A stretch of DNA of 42,277 nt, from assembly GCF_004168625.1 (NCBI RefSeq), contig NZ_SDWW01000041.1:1-42277 (forward strand). Direction: 5' to 3'. The notes below the pieces were generated by a model. It saw nothing but the letters and a program-made list of their open reading frames with translations. It ran no database searches and was not told the origin of the DNA. This document shows positions 6,222 to 15,398 of this stretch, piece after piece. The stretch's first letter is position 1. Every line of letters starts with the position of its first letter. A program made the translations under genes and the position numbers. The DNA is from Pengzhenrongella frigida (GTDB lineage: Bacteria; Actinomycetota; Actinomycetes; Actinomycetales; Cellulomonadaceae).

Positions 6222-7844
6222 TCAGCGGCGGGCCACGCCCGCGCGCAGCAGGCCGTAGACGATCGAGTCGACGATCGCCTCGAACGAGGCCTCGATGACG
6301 TTGGGGCCGACGCCGACGGTGCGCCACGTCGTCTCCGCACCGGAGTCCATGGTCTCCACGAGCACGCGTGTGACCGCGTCGGTGCCGTGCATCGTGTCCA
6401 TGATCCGCACCTTGAAGTCGATCAGCTCGAGGCGCTCGATCTCGGGATACGTCGTGACCAGCGCCTGGCGCAGCGCGTGGTCGAGGGCGTTGACGGGCCC
6501 GTTGCCCTCACCCGTCGCGACGGTGCGCGTGCCACCCGCGGTGAGCTTCACGGTCGCCTCGGCGTTCGCATGGTCGAGGGTCCCGGGGAGCGTCTCGACG
6601 ATGACCCGCCAGCTCTCGACGTCGAAGAAGGCGAGCCGCTCGCCGTCGACCTCCTCGCGCAGCAACAGCTCGAACGAGGCGTCCGCGGCGTCGTAGGTGT
6701 AGCCCTGCGCCTCAGCGTCCTTGATGCGGTTCATCACCCTGCCGAGCAGTTCGCTCTGCCCCGCCAGGTCGATGCCGAGCTCGCGACCCTTGAGCTCGAT
6801 CGACGCGCGACCGGCCATGTCGGAGATGAGCATGCGCATGTCGTTGCCGACCCGGATCGGGTCGATGTGCTGGTAGAGGTCCGGATCCACGCGGATGGCG
6901 CTCGCATGCAGCCCCGCCTTGTGGGCGAACGCGCTCGCACCGATGTAGGGCTGGCGTGCGAACGGGCTGATGTTGGTGATCTCGCTGATGGCGTGCGCGA
7001 TGCGGGTGGCCTCTCGCAGGCCGCCGGAACCGACGAGCAGGTTGCGTCCCTGCTTGATCTCGAGGTTCGCGACCACGGCGATGAGGTCGGCGTTGCCCGT
7101 GCGCTCGCCGTACCCGTTGACCGTCCCCTGCACATGACCTGCGCCGGCGCCGACCGCCGCGAGGGTGTTCGCGACCGCGCAGCCGGAGTCGTTGTGCGCG
7201 TGCATTCCCAGCCGGGGACCATGCCCGACGGCGGCCTGCACCTCGCCGACGATCTGCGCCACGCCGTCGGGCAGCATGCCGCCGTTCGTGTCGCACAGCG
7301 TGACGACCTCAGCGCCCGACCCGAACGCCGCCAGGATCGCCTCGAGGGCGTAGCCGGGGTCGTACCGGTAGCCGTCGAAGAAGTGCTCGGCGTCGAGCAC
7401 GACGCGCCGCCCCTCGCCCACCAGGAGCGAGACGGTGTCGGTGATCATCGCGAGGTTCTCCGCGGCGGTCGTGCGCAGCGCGCGCTCGACGTGGCGGATG
7501 TCGGTCTTGGCGACGAGGGTGACCACCGGCGTCTGGGCATCGAGCAGCGCCCGCACCTGCGGGTCGTCCACTGCCTTCACCCCCGCCTTCCGGGTGGCCC
7601 CGAAGGCGGCGAGCACCGCGTTGGTCAGGTGCAGCTCCTTGGCCGCCCGAGCGAAGAACTCCGTGTCCTTCGGGATCGCACCCGGCCACCCGCCCTCGAT
7701 GAAGCCGACCCCCAGCTCGTCCAGAAGCGGGGCGATGGCGAGCTTGTCCGCGACGGAGAGGTTCATCCCCTCCTGCTGCGCGCCGTCGCGCAACGTCGTG
7801 TCGTAGACGTCGAATGCACTGTGCTGCGAGTGGTCGCTGGTCAC
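6222..7844 (-). CDS. cimA: Citramalate synthase
   Basis: The 540-residue product belongs to the LeuA/CimA family. Near the N-terminus YDTTLRDGAQQEG (about 14-26) carries the catalytic and metal-binding R-D pair, HAHND near residue 213 carries the metal histidines, and the C-terminal part (about 400-540) is the LeuA-type allosteric domain ending VDSIVYGLLRAG. TLRDGAQQEG is the CimA form rather than that of 2-isopropylmalate synthase. The enzyme condenses pyruvate and acetyl-CoA to (R)-citramalate, the threonine-independent entry to isoleucine. I place the start at GTG 7844 with AAGAGAG upstream; an extension to 7994 would read through the leader region. It lies downstream of ilvE and of a leader-peptide attenuator. 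Confidence 0.93.
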   Translation of the reverse strand: MTSDHSQHSAFDVYDTTLRDGAQQEGMNLSVADKLAIAPLLDELGVGFIEGGWPGAIPKDTEFFARAAKELHLTNAVLAAFGATRKAGVKAVDDPQVRALLDAQTPVVTLVAKTDIRHVERALRTTAAENLAMITDTVSLLVGEGRRVVLDAEHFFDGYRYDPGYALEAILAAFGSGAEVVTLCDTNGGMLPDGVAQIVGEVQAAVGHGPRLGMHAHNDSGCAVANTLAAVGAGAGHVQGTVNGYGERTGNADLIAVVANLEIKQGRNLLVGSGGLREATRIAHAISEITNISPFARQPYIGASAFAHKAGLHASAIRVDPDLYQHIDPIRVGNDMRMLISDMAGRASIELKGRELGIDLAGQSELLGRVMNRIKDAEAQGYTYDAADASFELLLREEVDGERLAFFDVESWRVIVETLPGTLDHANAEATVKLTAGGTRTVATGEGNGPVNALDHALRQALVTTYPEIERLELIDFKVRIMDTMHGTDAVTRVLVETMDSGAETTWRTVGVGPNVIEASFEAIVDSIVYGLLRAGVARR

Positions 7845-7992
7845 GATGAACTCTCTTGAGCATGGAGACGGTGACGTGCCGGGAGACAAGAGTCTTCGTC
7901 GATCGCGTATCCCTGTGCGGGGAGCTGCCGGCGGGGGGTGGTGCCGGACTGGCGATCGACGGGCTGTCGGGTAGGGGGGTGGGCCCGACAAC

Positions 7993-8022
7993 AAAAAGAC
8001 CCCCCGAGGGTACGGGAGGTCT
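7993..8022 (-). terminator. Intrinsic terminator/attenuator upstream of cimA
   Basis: On the minus strand AGACCTCCCG (8022-8013), a six-base loop and CGGGGGGTCT (8006-7997) form a 10-bp stem with one G-T wobble, and T7997-T7993 gives a five-T tract. It lies 149 bases upstream of the cimA start and downstream of the leader ORF, the position expected of an attenuator. Confidence 0.85.
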
Positions 8023-8049
8023 GCGCGTTCGGCGGTCTGCCGAACGCGC
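8023..8049 (-). promoter_or_regulatory. Perfect 11-bp hairpin abutting the cimA leader stop codon
   Basis: GCGCGTTCGGC (8049-8039) and GCCGAACGCGC (8033-8023) pair without mismatch around the loop AGACC. The 5' arm starts on the last base of the leader stop codon, so a ribosome stalled on the last codons would cover it. Loop plus 3' arm give AGACCGCC, one base different from AGACCTCC in the terminator's 5' arm. It may therefore pair with GGGGGTCT and act as antiterminator. The alternative pairing is inferred; the repeats are seen. Confidence 0.75.
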
Positions 8050-8078
8050 TACACGATAAGGAGCTGGAACAGTGGCAC
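8049..8078 (-). CDS. Branched-chain amino acid leader peptide MPLFQLLIV (cimA attenuator)
   Basis: Ten codons from GTG 8078 to TAG encode MPLFQLLIV. Three leucines, one isoleucine and one valine make up five of the eight residues after the start, and L-L-I-V are the last four before the stop. A perfect hairpin and then a T-tracted terminator follow. This is the layout of ribosome-mediated transcription attenuation. No Shine-Dalgarno is present, but CATGAT ends six bases before the GTG, so the leader is probably translated from a leaderless transcript. A longer overlapping frame starting at the ATG of that CATGAT has an unremarkable composition and was rejected. Attenuators of this kind are known for ilvB and leuA in actinobacteria; I do not recall one for cimA. 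Confidence 0.8.
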   Translation of the reverse strand: MPLFQLLIV

Positions 8079-8084
8079 GGGGTG

Positions 8085-8090
8085 ATCATG
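8085..8090 (-). promoter_or_regulatory. Candidate -10 element for the cimA leader transcript
   Basis: CATGAT on the minus strand matches five of six positions of TATGAT and ends six bases before leader GTG 8078. A -35 element is not recognisable. The alternative is that the leader is transcribed only by read-through from ilvE. Confidence 0.4.
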
Positions 8091-8111
8091 GCACAGACGT
8101 CCGGGGCGTGA

Positions 8112-8146
8112 GAACTCCCGTCCACCTGCTGGATGAACGGGAGTTC
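8112..8146 (-). terminator. Hairpin just after ilvE
   Basis: GAACTCCCGT (8146-8137) and ACGGGAGTTC (8121-8112) form a perfect 10-bp stem with a 15-base loop, 12 bases after the ilvE stop. No T-tract follows. It may stabilise the ilvE mRNA end or cause weak termination before the cimA leader. Confidence 0.55.
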
Positions 8147-8157
8147 GGAGCCAGCTG

Positions 8158-9288
8158 CTACACGAGCCGGCGGAGCCAGGCGTGACGGTCCGTCGCACGG
8201 CCGTACTGGATGTCGGTGAGCTCACCGCGGATCCGGGTGGTGACCGCGCCGGCGGCACCGTCGGCCACGGTGAGGTTGAAGTCCTCCCCCGCCAGCCGGC
8301 CGATCGGGGTGATGACGGCCGCCGTCCCGCAGGCGAAGACCTCGGCGATCGAACCGTCCGCGATGCCGTCCTGGAGCTCGGTGAGCAGGATCGTGCGCTC
8401 GTCGACCTCGTGCCCGGCGTCGGTCAGGAGCGCGATGATCGACGAGCGGGTGACGCCCTCGAGGATCGATCCGGTGAGCGCAGGCGTCGACACCCGGCCG
8501 TCGGCGTGCACGACGACGACGTTCATCCCCCCGAGCTCTTCGATCTGGGTGTTGGTCGCGGCGTCGAGGAAGCAGACCTGCTCGCACCCGCGCTCGTGCG
8601 CCTCCTGCTGGGGCAGCAGGCTGGCGGCGTAGTTGCCACCGCACTTGGCTGCGCCCGTGCCGCCGGCACCCACCCGGTGGTAGTGCTGCGAGACCCAGAT
8701 CGACACCGGCGCGACCACGGCGCCGAAGTACGACCCGACGGGCGACGCGATCACGAGGAACTCCGCCTCGAGCGTCGTGCGCACACCGAGGTACTTCTCC
8801 GAGGCGTACATGAACGGGCGCAGGTACAGGCTGGTCTCGCCGCCCGACGGCACCCAGGCCACATCCGTGCGGACGAGGGCGGTGATGGCACCGAGGAAGT
8901 CCTCCTCGCTCAGCTCGGGCAGCGCGAGCCGGCGGGCCGACGCCGCGAACCGGGCCGCGTTCGCCTGGGGCCGGAAGGTCCAGATCGAGCCGTCCGCGTG
9001 GCGGTACGCCTTGAGCCCCTCGAAGATCTCCTGGCCGTAGTGCAGCACGGCCGACGCCGGGTCGAGCAGCAGCGGCCCGTACTTCACCACGCGTCGGTCG
9101 TGCCATCCGGTGCTCGCCGACCAGCTGATCCGCGCCATGTGATCGGTGAAGACCGTGCCGAACTTGGGCGCGGCGATCTCCGCCTCGCGCTCCGCCGTGG
9201 GTACGGGCGTGTCGCTCAGGCGCAGCTCGAATGCCGTGGAGCTGTCGCCGCGCGCACCGAGGGCGTCGAGATCGGAGGTCGTGGTCAT
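8158..9288 (-). CDS. ilvE: Branched-chain amino acid aminotransferase
   Basis: This 376-residue fold-type IV aminotransferase catalyses the last step of leucine, isoleucine and valine synthesis from the 2-keto acids and glutamate. The PLP lysine is K215 in GAAKCGGNYAAS. HYGQEIFEGLKAYR (83-96), LYLRPFMYASE and QIEELGGMNVV (EELGGMN) are characteristic of class II IlvE. Length is normal for actinobacteria. Start ATG 9288 has AAAGG about nine bases upstream. It follows leuB after 91 bases on the same strand and precedes the cimA leader. Confidence 0.96.
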   Translation of the reverse strand: MTTTSDLDALGARGDSSTAFELRLSDTPVPTAEREAEIAAPKFGTVFTDHMARISWSASTGWHDRRVVKYGPLLLDPASAVLHYGQEIFEGLKAYRHADGSIWTFRPQANAARFAASARRLALPELSEEDFLGAITALVRTDVAWVPSGGETSLYLRPFMYASEKYLGVRTTLEAEFLVIASPVGSYFGAVVAPVSIWVSQHYHRVGAGGTGAAKCGGNYAASLLPQQEAHERGCEQVCFLDAATNTQIEELGGMNVVVVHADGRVSTPALTGSILEGVTRSSIIALLTDAGHEVDERTILLTELQDGIADGSIAEVFACGTAAVITPIGRLAGEDFNLTVADGAAGAVTTRIRGELTDIQYGRATDRHAWLRRLV

Positions 9289-14825: not shown

Positions 14826-14896
14826 CGATCTCTCCTAAGACGTCGGTGCGGGTGCTGCTCTGCACTGCAGACTGCGAGATGCACGTGCCGTGACAC

Positions 14897-14933
14897 AAAA
14901 AAGCCCCTCGGCCCAAGCGGGCTGGACGAGGGG
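14897..14933 (-). terminator. Intrinsic terminator/attenuator upstream of ilvB
   Basis: On the minus strand CCCCTCG (14933-14927) pairs with CGAGGGG (14910-14904), with an inner GCCC/GGGC stem and a bulged TCCA, followed by C and six T residues (14902-14897). It is 71 bases upstream of ATG 14825 and 30 bases after the leader stop. A competing pairing joins GCGCGTCGCC (14975-14966, last leader codons) with GGCAACGCGC (14945-14936), one mismatch. Confidence 0.88.
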
Positions 14934-14962
14934 AGGCGCGTTGCCGTTGATCCGTTGGATCT

Positions 14963-15001
14963 TTAGGCGACGCGCTCGTTAACTACGAGAATCGACTGCA
15001 C
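14963..15001 (-). CDS. ilvB leader peptide MQSILVVNERVA
   Basis: Thirteen codons from GTG 15001 to TAA encode MQSILVVNERVA, with the run I-L-V-V at positions 4-7. Leader peptides with an ILV run precede ilvB operons in corynebacteria and streptomycetes, where ribosome stalling prevents termination. Here the terminator follows 30 bases after the stop. There is no Shine-Dalgarno, and a -10 hexamer ends seven bases upstream, so the leader mRNA should be leaderless. Confidence 0.87.
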   Translation of the reverse strand: MQSILVVNERVA

Positions 15002-15008
15002 CGGACGT

Positions 15009-15038
15009 ACGTTACGCCCGCGCGGGGTCCGATGTCAC
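15009..15038 (-). promoter_or_regulatory. Promoter of the ilvB leader
   Basis: On the minus strand GTGACA (15038-15033), an 18-base spacer and TAACGT (15014-15009) form a good sigma-70-type promoter. The expected transcription start, about seven bases on, coincides with leader GTG 15001. This is the only leaderless candidate in the window with a recognisable -35. Confidence 0.65.
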
Positions 15039-15153
15039 TCCAACCCATCGCTGTCTCACATCGTGGTTCACGTGACCATCCAGTGGAACGCCCGGTGGGG
15101 GCGCCGTCGAGCTCGTCGAGGGCACCCGCACCGGTCGGGGTTCCGATTGCAGT

Positions 15154-15228
15154 CAGCAGCACCGCGCCAGCGTCAGCAGCACCGCGCCAGCGTCAGCAGC
15201 ACCGCGCCAGCGTCAGCAGCACCGCGCC
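15154..15228. repeat. 20-bp tandem repeats that copy the end of the ybdD-type gene
   Basis: The unit CAGCAGCACCGCGCCAGCGT is present at 15154-15173, 15174-15193 and 15194-15213, and its first 15 bases again at 15214-15228, which is the end of the ybdD-like coding region. Read on the minus strand each unit contains the sequence that encodes the terminal A-R-C-C and its TGA, so the gene's end has been copied downstream in tandem. Confidence 0.9.
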
Positions 15229-15398
15229 TGGACGGGAGAGTCGTGGCGCGAGCGCCAGTACTCGCGGATGCTCTCCGGTTCCTCGCCCGGGTGCACCCGG
15301 GCGAGGTGCGCGACGTAGCGCTCATAGTCGTGGTCACCCATCAGGGTCGTCCAGTACCACCGCACGCCGGCCGCCGCCCGCGCCACGGCGGCCCTCAA
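15213..15398 (-). CDS. YbdD/YjiX-family small protein (partner of CstA)
   Basis: The 61-residue protein has the family's hallmarks: MGDHDYERYVAHLARVHPGEEP, REYWRSRH and the C-terminal ARCC. YbdD/YjiX proteins are encoded beside CstA/BtsT pyruvate and peptide transporters and are thought to be accessory to transport. The TTG start at 15398 overlaps the cstA stop (TTGA), indicating translational coupling; GTG 15386 is an alternative start. The C-terminal codons are part of a 20-bp repeat array. Confidence 0.9.
   Translation of the reverse strand: MRAAVARAAAGVRWYWTTLMGDHDYERYVAHLARVHPGEEPESIREYWRSRHDSPVQARCC

Follow-up and report, generated by a model that had tools for sequence, protein, structure and literature searches.

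Citramalate synthase, the product of cimA, opens a threonine-independent route to isoleucine, and isoleucine is the product of that route. Whether cimA answers to the supply of this amino acid is the question raised by the window, a stretch of 42,277 nt from the 4.3 Mb genome of Pengzhenrongella frigida, in which cimA follows ilvE on the minus strand across a gap of 313 nt. The initial annotation had placed an attenuator in this gap, made of a leader ORF ending in Leu-Leu-Ile-Val directly before its stop, an 11-bp hairpin and a T-tracted terminator, and all of these parts are present on the minus strand. Our analysis makes it highly probable that they form an isoleucine-sensing leader-peptide attenuator of cimA.

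The gene predicted to be regulated, cimA, lies at 6225..7844 of the minus strand (stop codon excluded) with a GTG start at 7844, and it was identified with NCBIfam TIGR00977 at 598.7 bits against a cut-off of 450. A possible Shine-Dalgarno sequence, AAGAGAG, stands before it at 7857-7851 (minus strand). Two equivalog NCBIfam models matched ilvE (8158-9288) above their cut-offs. On the same strand, ilvE is preceded by leuB, then by ilvC and ilvN (from ORF reading) and by ilvB, and it is followed by cimA. Several copies of tandem near-identical units of about 20 bp (CGCGGTGCTGCTGACGCTGG) were seen by eye upstream of ilvB, at about 15150-15240 of the window. Along the transcript, the gap holds the ilvE hairpin, a -10-like hexamer, the leader ORF, hairpin 1 and the terminator with its T-tract, from which 145 nt remain to cimA. 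The ilvE hairpin (8112..8146, minus strand) has 15 bp, a fold z-score of -5.5 and no T-tract behind it, and the ilvE transcript may end there.

The putative leader peptide, (V/M)PLFQLLIV, is encoded at 8049..8078 (minus strand) by GTG CCA CTG TTC CAG CTC CTT ATC GTG TAG. The nine codons and the peptide sequence agree with the MPLFQLLIV of the initial annotation, although the start codon is GTG and not ATG. The candidate control codons CTC CTT ATC GTG (8052..8063, minus strand) specify Leu-Leu-Ile-Val, so that the window leader contains one isoleucine only. Four Ile, Leu or Val codons out of the last four occurred with a frequency of 0.0004 in 5000 shuffles of the 90 nt before the stop, a value that applies to the window alone. 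A -10-like hexamer, CATGAT (8085..8090, minus strand), ends 6 nt before the leader GTG, and the leader mRNA is therefore probably leaderless. A weak -35 candidate, TTCTCA, was picked out by eye at 8109..8114 (minus strand), 18 nt before the hexamer; a consensus scanner returned no sigma-70 site.

Hairpin 1 (GCGCGTTCGGC-AGACC-GCCGAACGCGC, 8023..8049, minus strand) has 11 bp and a 5-nt loop and begins on the G of the leader stop codon. It is followed with a gap of 0 nt by the 10-bp terminator hairpin (AGACCTCCCG-TACCCT-CGGGGGGTCT, 7997..8022, minus strand) and then by the T-tract TTTTTGTT (7990..7997, minus strand). Together, the two hairpins gave a fold z-score of -4.3, and 0 of 200 shuffles were equally stable. 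Between 7860 and 8160, two terminator-like sites were found against 0.1 in shuffles; they overlap, and both lie within the terminator hairpin.

Conservation was examined upstream of cimA in related genomes. When 199 genomes, the source genome included, were searched with CimA, 194 gave a match at E <= 0.001; part of these matches are weak and probably represent the related leuA. Among the strong matches listed, 110 upstream regions were compiled, comprising the window and 109 relatives (29 from the search and 80 chosen). An automatic test required a short ORF with at least one Ile and at least two Ile, Leu or Val in its last four residues and a stop codon 40-58 nt before a T-tract with hairpin. 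The same design was found in 96 of the 110 regions; the thresholds were chosen after a stricter earlier scan, which included no terminator and gave 27 of 110. Inspection by eye of the 14 regions that failed the test revealed a divergent form in eight and no element in six. Divergent leaders included four that run into hairpin 1 (L095, L102, L104 and L105) and two with one isoleucine (L029 and L046). Where the element is absent (L061, L079, L103, L108, L109 and L111), cimA lies close behind a neighbouring gene. For the counts below, two of the 96 regions with a poorly folding terminator (L096 and L097) were left out of folding and positional analyses, giving 94, and two with an ORF called too short (L077 and L078) were also left out of shuffling and start analyses, giving 92.

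The conserved leaders point to isoleucine as the amino acid that is sensed. The commonest leader end is Leu-Ile-Ile-Glu (28/96), with the consensus CTC ATT ATC GnG; at least two of the last four codons specify isoleucine in 77 of 96 leaders, and two adjacent isoleucines occur in 71 of 96. In the 92 leaders, at least two Ile in the last four codons were observed 73 times, compared with 0.1 expected from shuffles of the 90 nt upstream of the stop codon. The leaders of four congeners end in LIIV, LIIV, IVIA and LLIV, and the Leu-Leu-Ile-Val of the window looks, on this comparison, like a drifted copy of an Ile-Ile sensor. Control of cimA by charged Leu, Ile and Val tRNA, as predicted beforehand, thus holds in part: the element has the look of a leader-peptide attenuator, but its signal appears to be mainly isoleucine, since Ile-Ile is commonest in relatives. 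The start is conserved as well. Of the 92 leaders, 83 have a YANNMT hexamer whose end lies 6 or 7 nt upstream of the start codon, 8 show no such hexamer, and 2 contain an SD-like 4-mer; the cimA leader is, on this pattern, probably leaderless.

Leaders differ in length by whole numbers of codons, and 95 of 96 end in TAG. In 86 of 94 leaders, the final base of the stop codon, the G of TAG, also opens hairpin 1, and the preference for TAG fits this geometry. All 94 folded leaders have a gap of 0 or 1 nt between hairpin 1 and the terminator, a statistic restricted to this set, as in loci found with the pattern described below the gap is limited by the pattern.

The hairpins were aligned for 76 of 87 distinct segments, and a covariance model was built from 45 of those 76. 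In the 45 aligned sequences, changes on both sides of a pair occurred at 7 of the 11 pairs of hairpin 1, and covariation in the terminator was small (2 of 10 pairs). Over both hairpins, 96.2% of the cells can pair, compared with 37.5-56.1% when the arms are slid, and the observed values were matched by 0 of 500 shuffles. The four basal pairs of hairpin 1 are invariant in the 45 sequences, an invariance that is partly selection because this set was picked for uniform terminator ends, and rarely changed in the 76. A U-G pair is frequent in the terminator (39/45), where the 5′ arm (8022-8013 in the window, minus strand) stays CCUCCC, whereas CCCCCC would pair better. In three loci of one genus with genomes as large as those of Streptomyces (L279, L280 and L286, genus g90), hairpin 1 of the cimA element is enlarged by an insertion of some 50 nt that forms a further stem.

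The covariance model of both hairpins scores the window element at 90 bits, by construction, as the window copy belongs to the training set; no second convincing site was found with it in the source genome (next E = 1.04). Among 394 genomes of the class, the model matched 214 at E <= 0.01, and cimA was found at E <= 1e-100 in 310 of the same genomes. Of the 150 matches listed, 99 could be checked for position, and 97 of these lie 23-225 nt before a cimA match. At the other two (L272 and L273), leaders MFTPRIII* and MFALVIIM* precede a small gene that looks ACT-like (its Pfam ACT_4 match stays under the cut-off), and both genomes have cimA elsewhere; the ACT-like gene is a possible second isoleucine-controlled gene. 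Some genomes have a model match but no cimA at E <= 1e-100, and the two of these that were inspected (G207 and G247) carry the element before ilvB. For the best 30 model loci with sequence available, cimA lies downstream in 29, and the thirtieth sequence ends early. When 14 cimA loci without a listed match were inspected by eye, an Ile-Ile leader was seen in five (L279, L280, L282, L283 and L286) and none in nine; the three leaders of genus g90 read MLSFA(T/M)IIGSRRAGPQ with ATT ATT. The nine loci, together with the 6 of 110 regions above that lack the element, count against an attenuator of cimA, as does the single isoleucine of the window leader. Carriers of the element include Cellulomonas, Isoptericola, Knoellia, Micromonospora, Actinoplanes and Blastococcus.

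A pattern specifying only a stop codon and the hairpin arms, with no leader codons, found at least 120 loci. Of the 120 listed, 90 lie before cimA; all 90 have a T-tract and at least two Ile, Leu or Val among the last four codons, and 80 of them have Ile-Ile. Four listed loci lie before ilvB, have Val/Leu leaders and tested negative for a T-tract. Another ten lie at contig ends, and nine of these carry Ile, Leu or Val codons. The tenth contig-end locus and the other 16 listed loci are without such codons, and 2 of these 17 have a T-tract; they look like chance matches. The relatives' set, the covariance-model set and the pattern set overlap in species and ancestry. The initial annotation had made conservation of leader codons and stems in relatives its own check, and the prediction withstood it in the 96 of 110 regions, in the covariation of the hairpins, in the codon shuffling and in the pattern test.

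In a phylum-wide draw, the model matched 45 of 296 genomes, some of them from the class, and 26 loci were inspected, the leader being taken as the ORF with the most Ile, Leu and Val. This choice biases towards Ile/Leu/Val leaders but not towards Val over Ile. The automatic procedure made no call for 3 of the 26 loci (L300, L305 and L316), and some loci showed no clear T-tract in the stretch examined. Similar hairpins were present before ilvB with Val/Leu-rich leaders, and distant cimA genes at two loci (L302 and L314) had the leader IIII. LLL leaders with similar hairpins were observed before leuA (L296 and L307) and before a partial leuS (L306, just below the model cut-off). One locus (L299) has the leader end VIIIE*, with three isoleucines, before leuB and then the start of ilvE; this leuB may serve the citramalate route. 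When the sets were pooled and the last five codons compared, Ile-Ile occurred in 152 of 189 cimA leaders and in 0 of 24 ilvB leaders, whereas VV, VL or LV occurred in 24 of 24 ilvB leaders and in 6 of 189 cimA leaders; LLL was found in all three leuA/leuS leaders. The p-values of this exchange (4e-21 on distinct tails) serve as a guide only, as the rows are related and the sets overlap. One locus breaks the rule: at L300, a leader-like RVLLIT* and the hairpins precede an unassigned ORF; an ORF resembling prephenate dehydratase lies close by. These comparisons show that the control codons follow the downstream gene, with Ile for cimA, Val/Leu for ilvB and Leu for leuA and leuS, and this natural exchange indirectly supports a codon-dependent response to amino acid limitation.

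The isoleucine codons of the leaders are unusual in themselves. ATT accounts for 81 of 189 leader Ile codons, whereas 29 cimA genes use it for 1 of their 637. With the two leaders of poorly folding terminators (L096 and L097) left out, ATT makes up 76 of 184 leader Ile codons, while T is the third base of 40 of the 432 other leader codons that end in a pyrimidine. The leaders are somewhat T-richer overall, and most of the ATT excess is specific to isoleucine. We read ATT as tuning the stall; avoidance of structure is the alternative.

Based on these observations, the following mechanism is proposed. The leader would be translated by a ribosome while RNA polymerase makes the hairpins. With Ile-tRNA in short supply, the ribosome would stall on the Ile codons and transcription would read through into cimA; with isoleucine plentiful, the ribosome would reach the stop and the terminator would end transcription. 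The position of the codons fits this order of events. In 185 of 186 leaders, the final Ile occupies codon -2 or -3, and hairpin 1 begins downstream of the control codons rather than enclosing them. If the front edge of the ribosome is assumed to lie 15 nt from the P-site codon, a stall at Ile -3 covers on average 10% of the hairpin 1 5′ arm, a stall at Ile -2 38% and a ribosome at the stop 92%. Given this codon position and arm coverage, hairpin 1 should be largely present in starvation and absent with a ribosome at the stop, and feedback in the right direction then means that hairpin 1 should favour read-through. A stall on Ile would leave hairpin 1 formed, and within the RNA exit channel hairpin 1, which abuts the terminator, would then make it harder for the terminator to close. 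A ribosome that has reached the stop would instead sit on the hairpin 1 5′ arm, and termination could proceed. In folds, hairpin 1 and the terminator are mutually compatible, and the last step, in which hairpin 1 would sterically oppose closure of the terminator, is a tentative proposal that we hold to be somewhat more probably wrong than right.

Nearly as likely as hindrance by hairpin 1, though still doubtful taken singly, is that the stalled ribosome itself blocks termination, either simply because it sits close to RNA polymerase or because it obstructs the base of hairpin 1, whose stacking would otherwise aid the terminator. The hairpin gap of 0-1 nt in all 94 leaders agrees with such an arrangement, and a stall at Ile -2 covers the four near-invariant basal pairs of hairpin 1. 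However, only about 1 bp is covered when the ribosome stalls at Ile -3, which is also common, and the terminator stays stable in the masked folds with a mean probability of 0.97.

A classical attenuator, with pairings 1:2, 2:3 and 3:4, is the next explanation to be weighed. In such an attenuator, a ribosome stalled on control codons that overlap segment 1 hides that segment, and segment 2 pairs with the 5′ arm of the terminator. The layout of leader, two hairpins and T-tract, and control codons for the product of the pathway, are what this model expects. However, the codons precede segment 1 instead of overlapping it, and a 2:3 antiterminator was not found. The antiterminator was sought in folds in which the 3′ arm of the terminator is not yet made, by computing the probability that its 5′ arm binds upstream. 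The highest probability over Ile and Val stalls averaged 0.21 and exceeded 0.5 in 3 of 94 leaders; over all stalls, the mean maximum was 0.33, with more than 0.5 in 5 of 94. As a control, the same test gave 0.52-0.97 at the control codons of five E. coli leaders (thrL, hisL, leuL, ilvL and trpL), the exceptions being His codons 1 and 2 of hisL, with 0.04 and 0.29. On this test, pairing of the 3′ arm of hairpin 1, or of the leader, with the 5′ arm of the terminator was rejected as an antiterminator. In the three loci with the longer hairpin 1, no antiterminator was seen in the fold either.

Complements to the terminator 5′ arm are not enriched elsewhere. Over 93 regions, the mean longest match was 4.84 upstream, compared with 4.86 in shuffled sequence, and 4.41 downstream, compared with 4.44, and no enriched partner with A was found for CCUCCC. 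In the window, a 6-nt complement, CGGGAG, lies upstream in the ilvE hairpin. The loops of hairpin 1 are rich in C and A, and 38 of their 1037 bases are G. The idea that loop 1 imitates the 5′ arm of the terminator was rejected, there being no species-specific match, and pairing of loop 1 with segment 4 was unsupported, with 133 of 300 partner swaps as stable. Attenuation of the classical kind is consequently improbable here, with neither antiterminator pairing nor control codons inside hairpin 1.

That the terminator belongs only to an upstream transcript, with a leader-like ORF arising by chance, gains something from the mere nine codons of the window ORF but is very improbable against the excess of isoleucine leaders over shuffles (73 against 0.1 of 92), the covariation, the exchange of codons with the downstream gene and the hairpin that ilvE already has at 8146-8112. 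A small-molecule riboswitch, T-box or protein-bound leader would fit two conserved hairpins and is just as remote, as much of the conserved information lies in codons, length changes by whole codons, the amino acid tracks the gene, and no Rfam family matched the window at its gathering score (best weak match Phe_leader, 20.3 bits against 55).

Beyond cimA itself, the leaders before ilvB, leuA and leuS allow a broader but unlikely proposal: a family of switches across the phylum Actinomycetota that would share one architecture, exchangeable codons, no 2:3 antiterminator, tuning by ATT, and a hairpin 1 acting as a read-through element that the finishing ribosome destroys.

Herein, the element occurs in 214 of 394 genomes of its class, yet our search of the open-access literature found no described leader or attenuator of cimA, in agreement with the initial annotation, which knew of none. 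The element offers a clear sensor, Ile-Ile with the rare ATT, and a natural series of codon swaps between genes, and it poses the puzzle of attenuation without a recognisable antiterminator. It is also a possible small regulatory part for strains producing isoleucine or citramalate.

The closest known systems are the ilvB and ilvBNC leaders of actinobacteria, which likewise have Ile, Val or Leu codons shortly before a hairpin and an intrinsic terminator, with a branched-chain gene downstream. Leader-peptide attenuation and leaderless ilvB leaders are known in Actinobacteria, and the 2005 survey by Seliverstov et al. described the mode of action of the ilvB leaders as unclear (PMC1262725). The same source cites leader codon changes in Streptomyces coelicolor ilvB as reported to be without effect on regulation, which weighs against the attenuator reading. 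Leaders of S. lividans are described as transcribed leaderless, and Table 4 of that paper gives eight leaders, none of them for cimA (PMC8079986). The ilvBNC leader of Corynebacterium glutamicum (Morbach et al. 2000) has no ribosome binding site, according to the reference title given in PMC4046766. The leaderless start predicted for cimA fits these published S. lividans and C. glutamicum leaders.

The window also holds such a leader before its own ilvB (assigned with NCBIfam). The leader MQSILVVNERVA* (15001-14963, minus strand) is leaderless-looking, and its element (14894-15014) has hairpin 1 at 14975-14936, the terminator at 14933-14904 and a T-tract, in the same hairpin order as for cimA. 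The last Val codon of its LVV run stands 5 nt before hairpin 1, like the last Ile at -2. The two differ in where the leader ORF ends: for cimA mostly right at the base of the hairpin, for this ilvB only after running into it.

For M. tuberculosis ilvB1, the model proposed in a paper published in 2026 (PMC13236596) has a stalled ribosome permitting the antiterminator and a ribosome at the stop preventing it, the same order as proposed here for hairpin 1 of the cimA element. Changing the LVVI codons to Ala is reported there to abolish induction. A mutually exclusive antiterminator is part of the model described for ilvB1, whereas none was found for the cimA element. The LEU element of leuA in Actinobacteria is set apart by its description as a pseudoknot with a base stem involving the SD box (PMC1262725), the cimA element being two plain hairpins and a T-tract. 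The E. coli attenuators thrL, hisL, leuL, ilvL and trpL share with it a leader peptide with control codons, hairpins and an intrinsic terminator; they show an antiterminator in the computation in which the cimA element does not, and its control codons lie upstream of hairpin 1. With the ilvB type, the element has in common a start that looks leaderless from its sequence, branched-chain amino acid codons, a T-tract terminator and a branched-chain gene downstream; it differs in serving cimA and in having Ile-Ile as its commonest sensor. What appears to be new, judged by sequence comparison, is that an element of ilvB-type architecture, in which the antiterminator that defines classical attenuators was not found, stands at another gene and very probably senses another amino acid.
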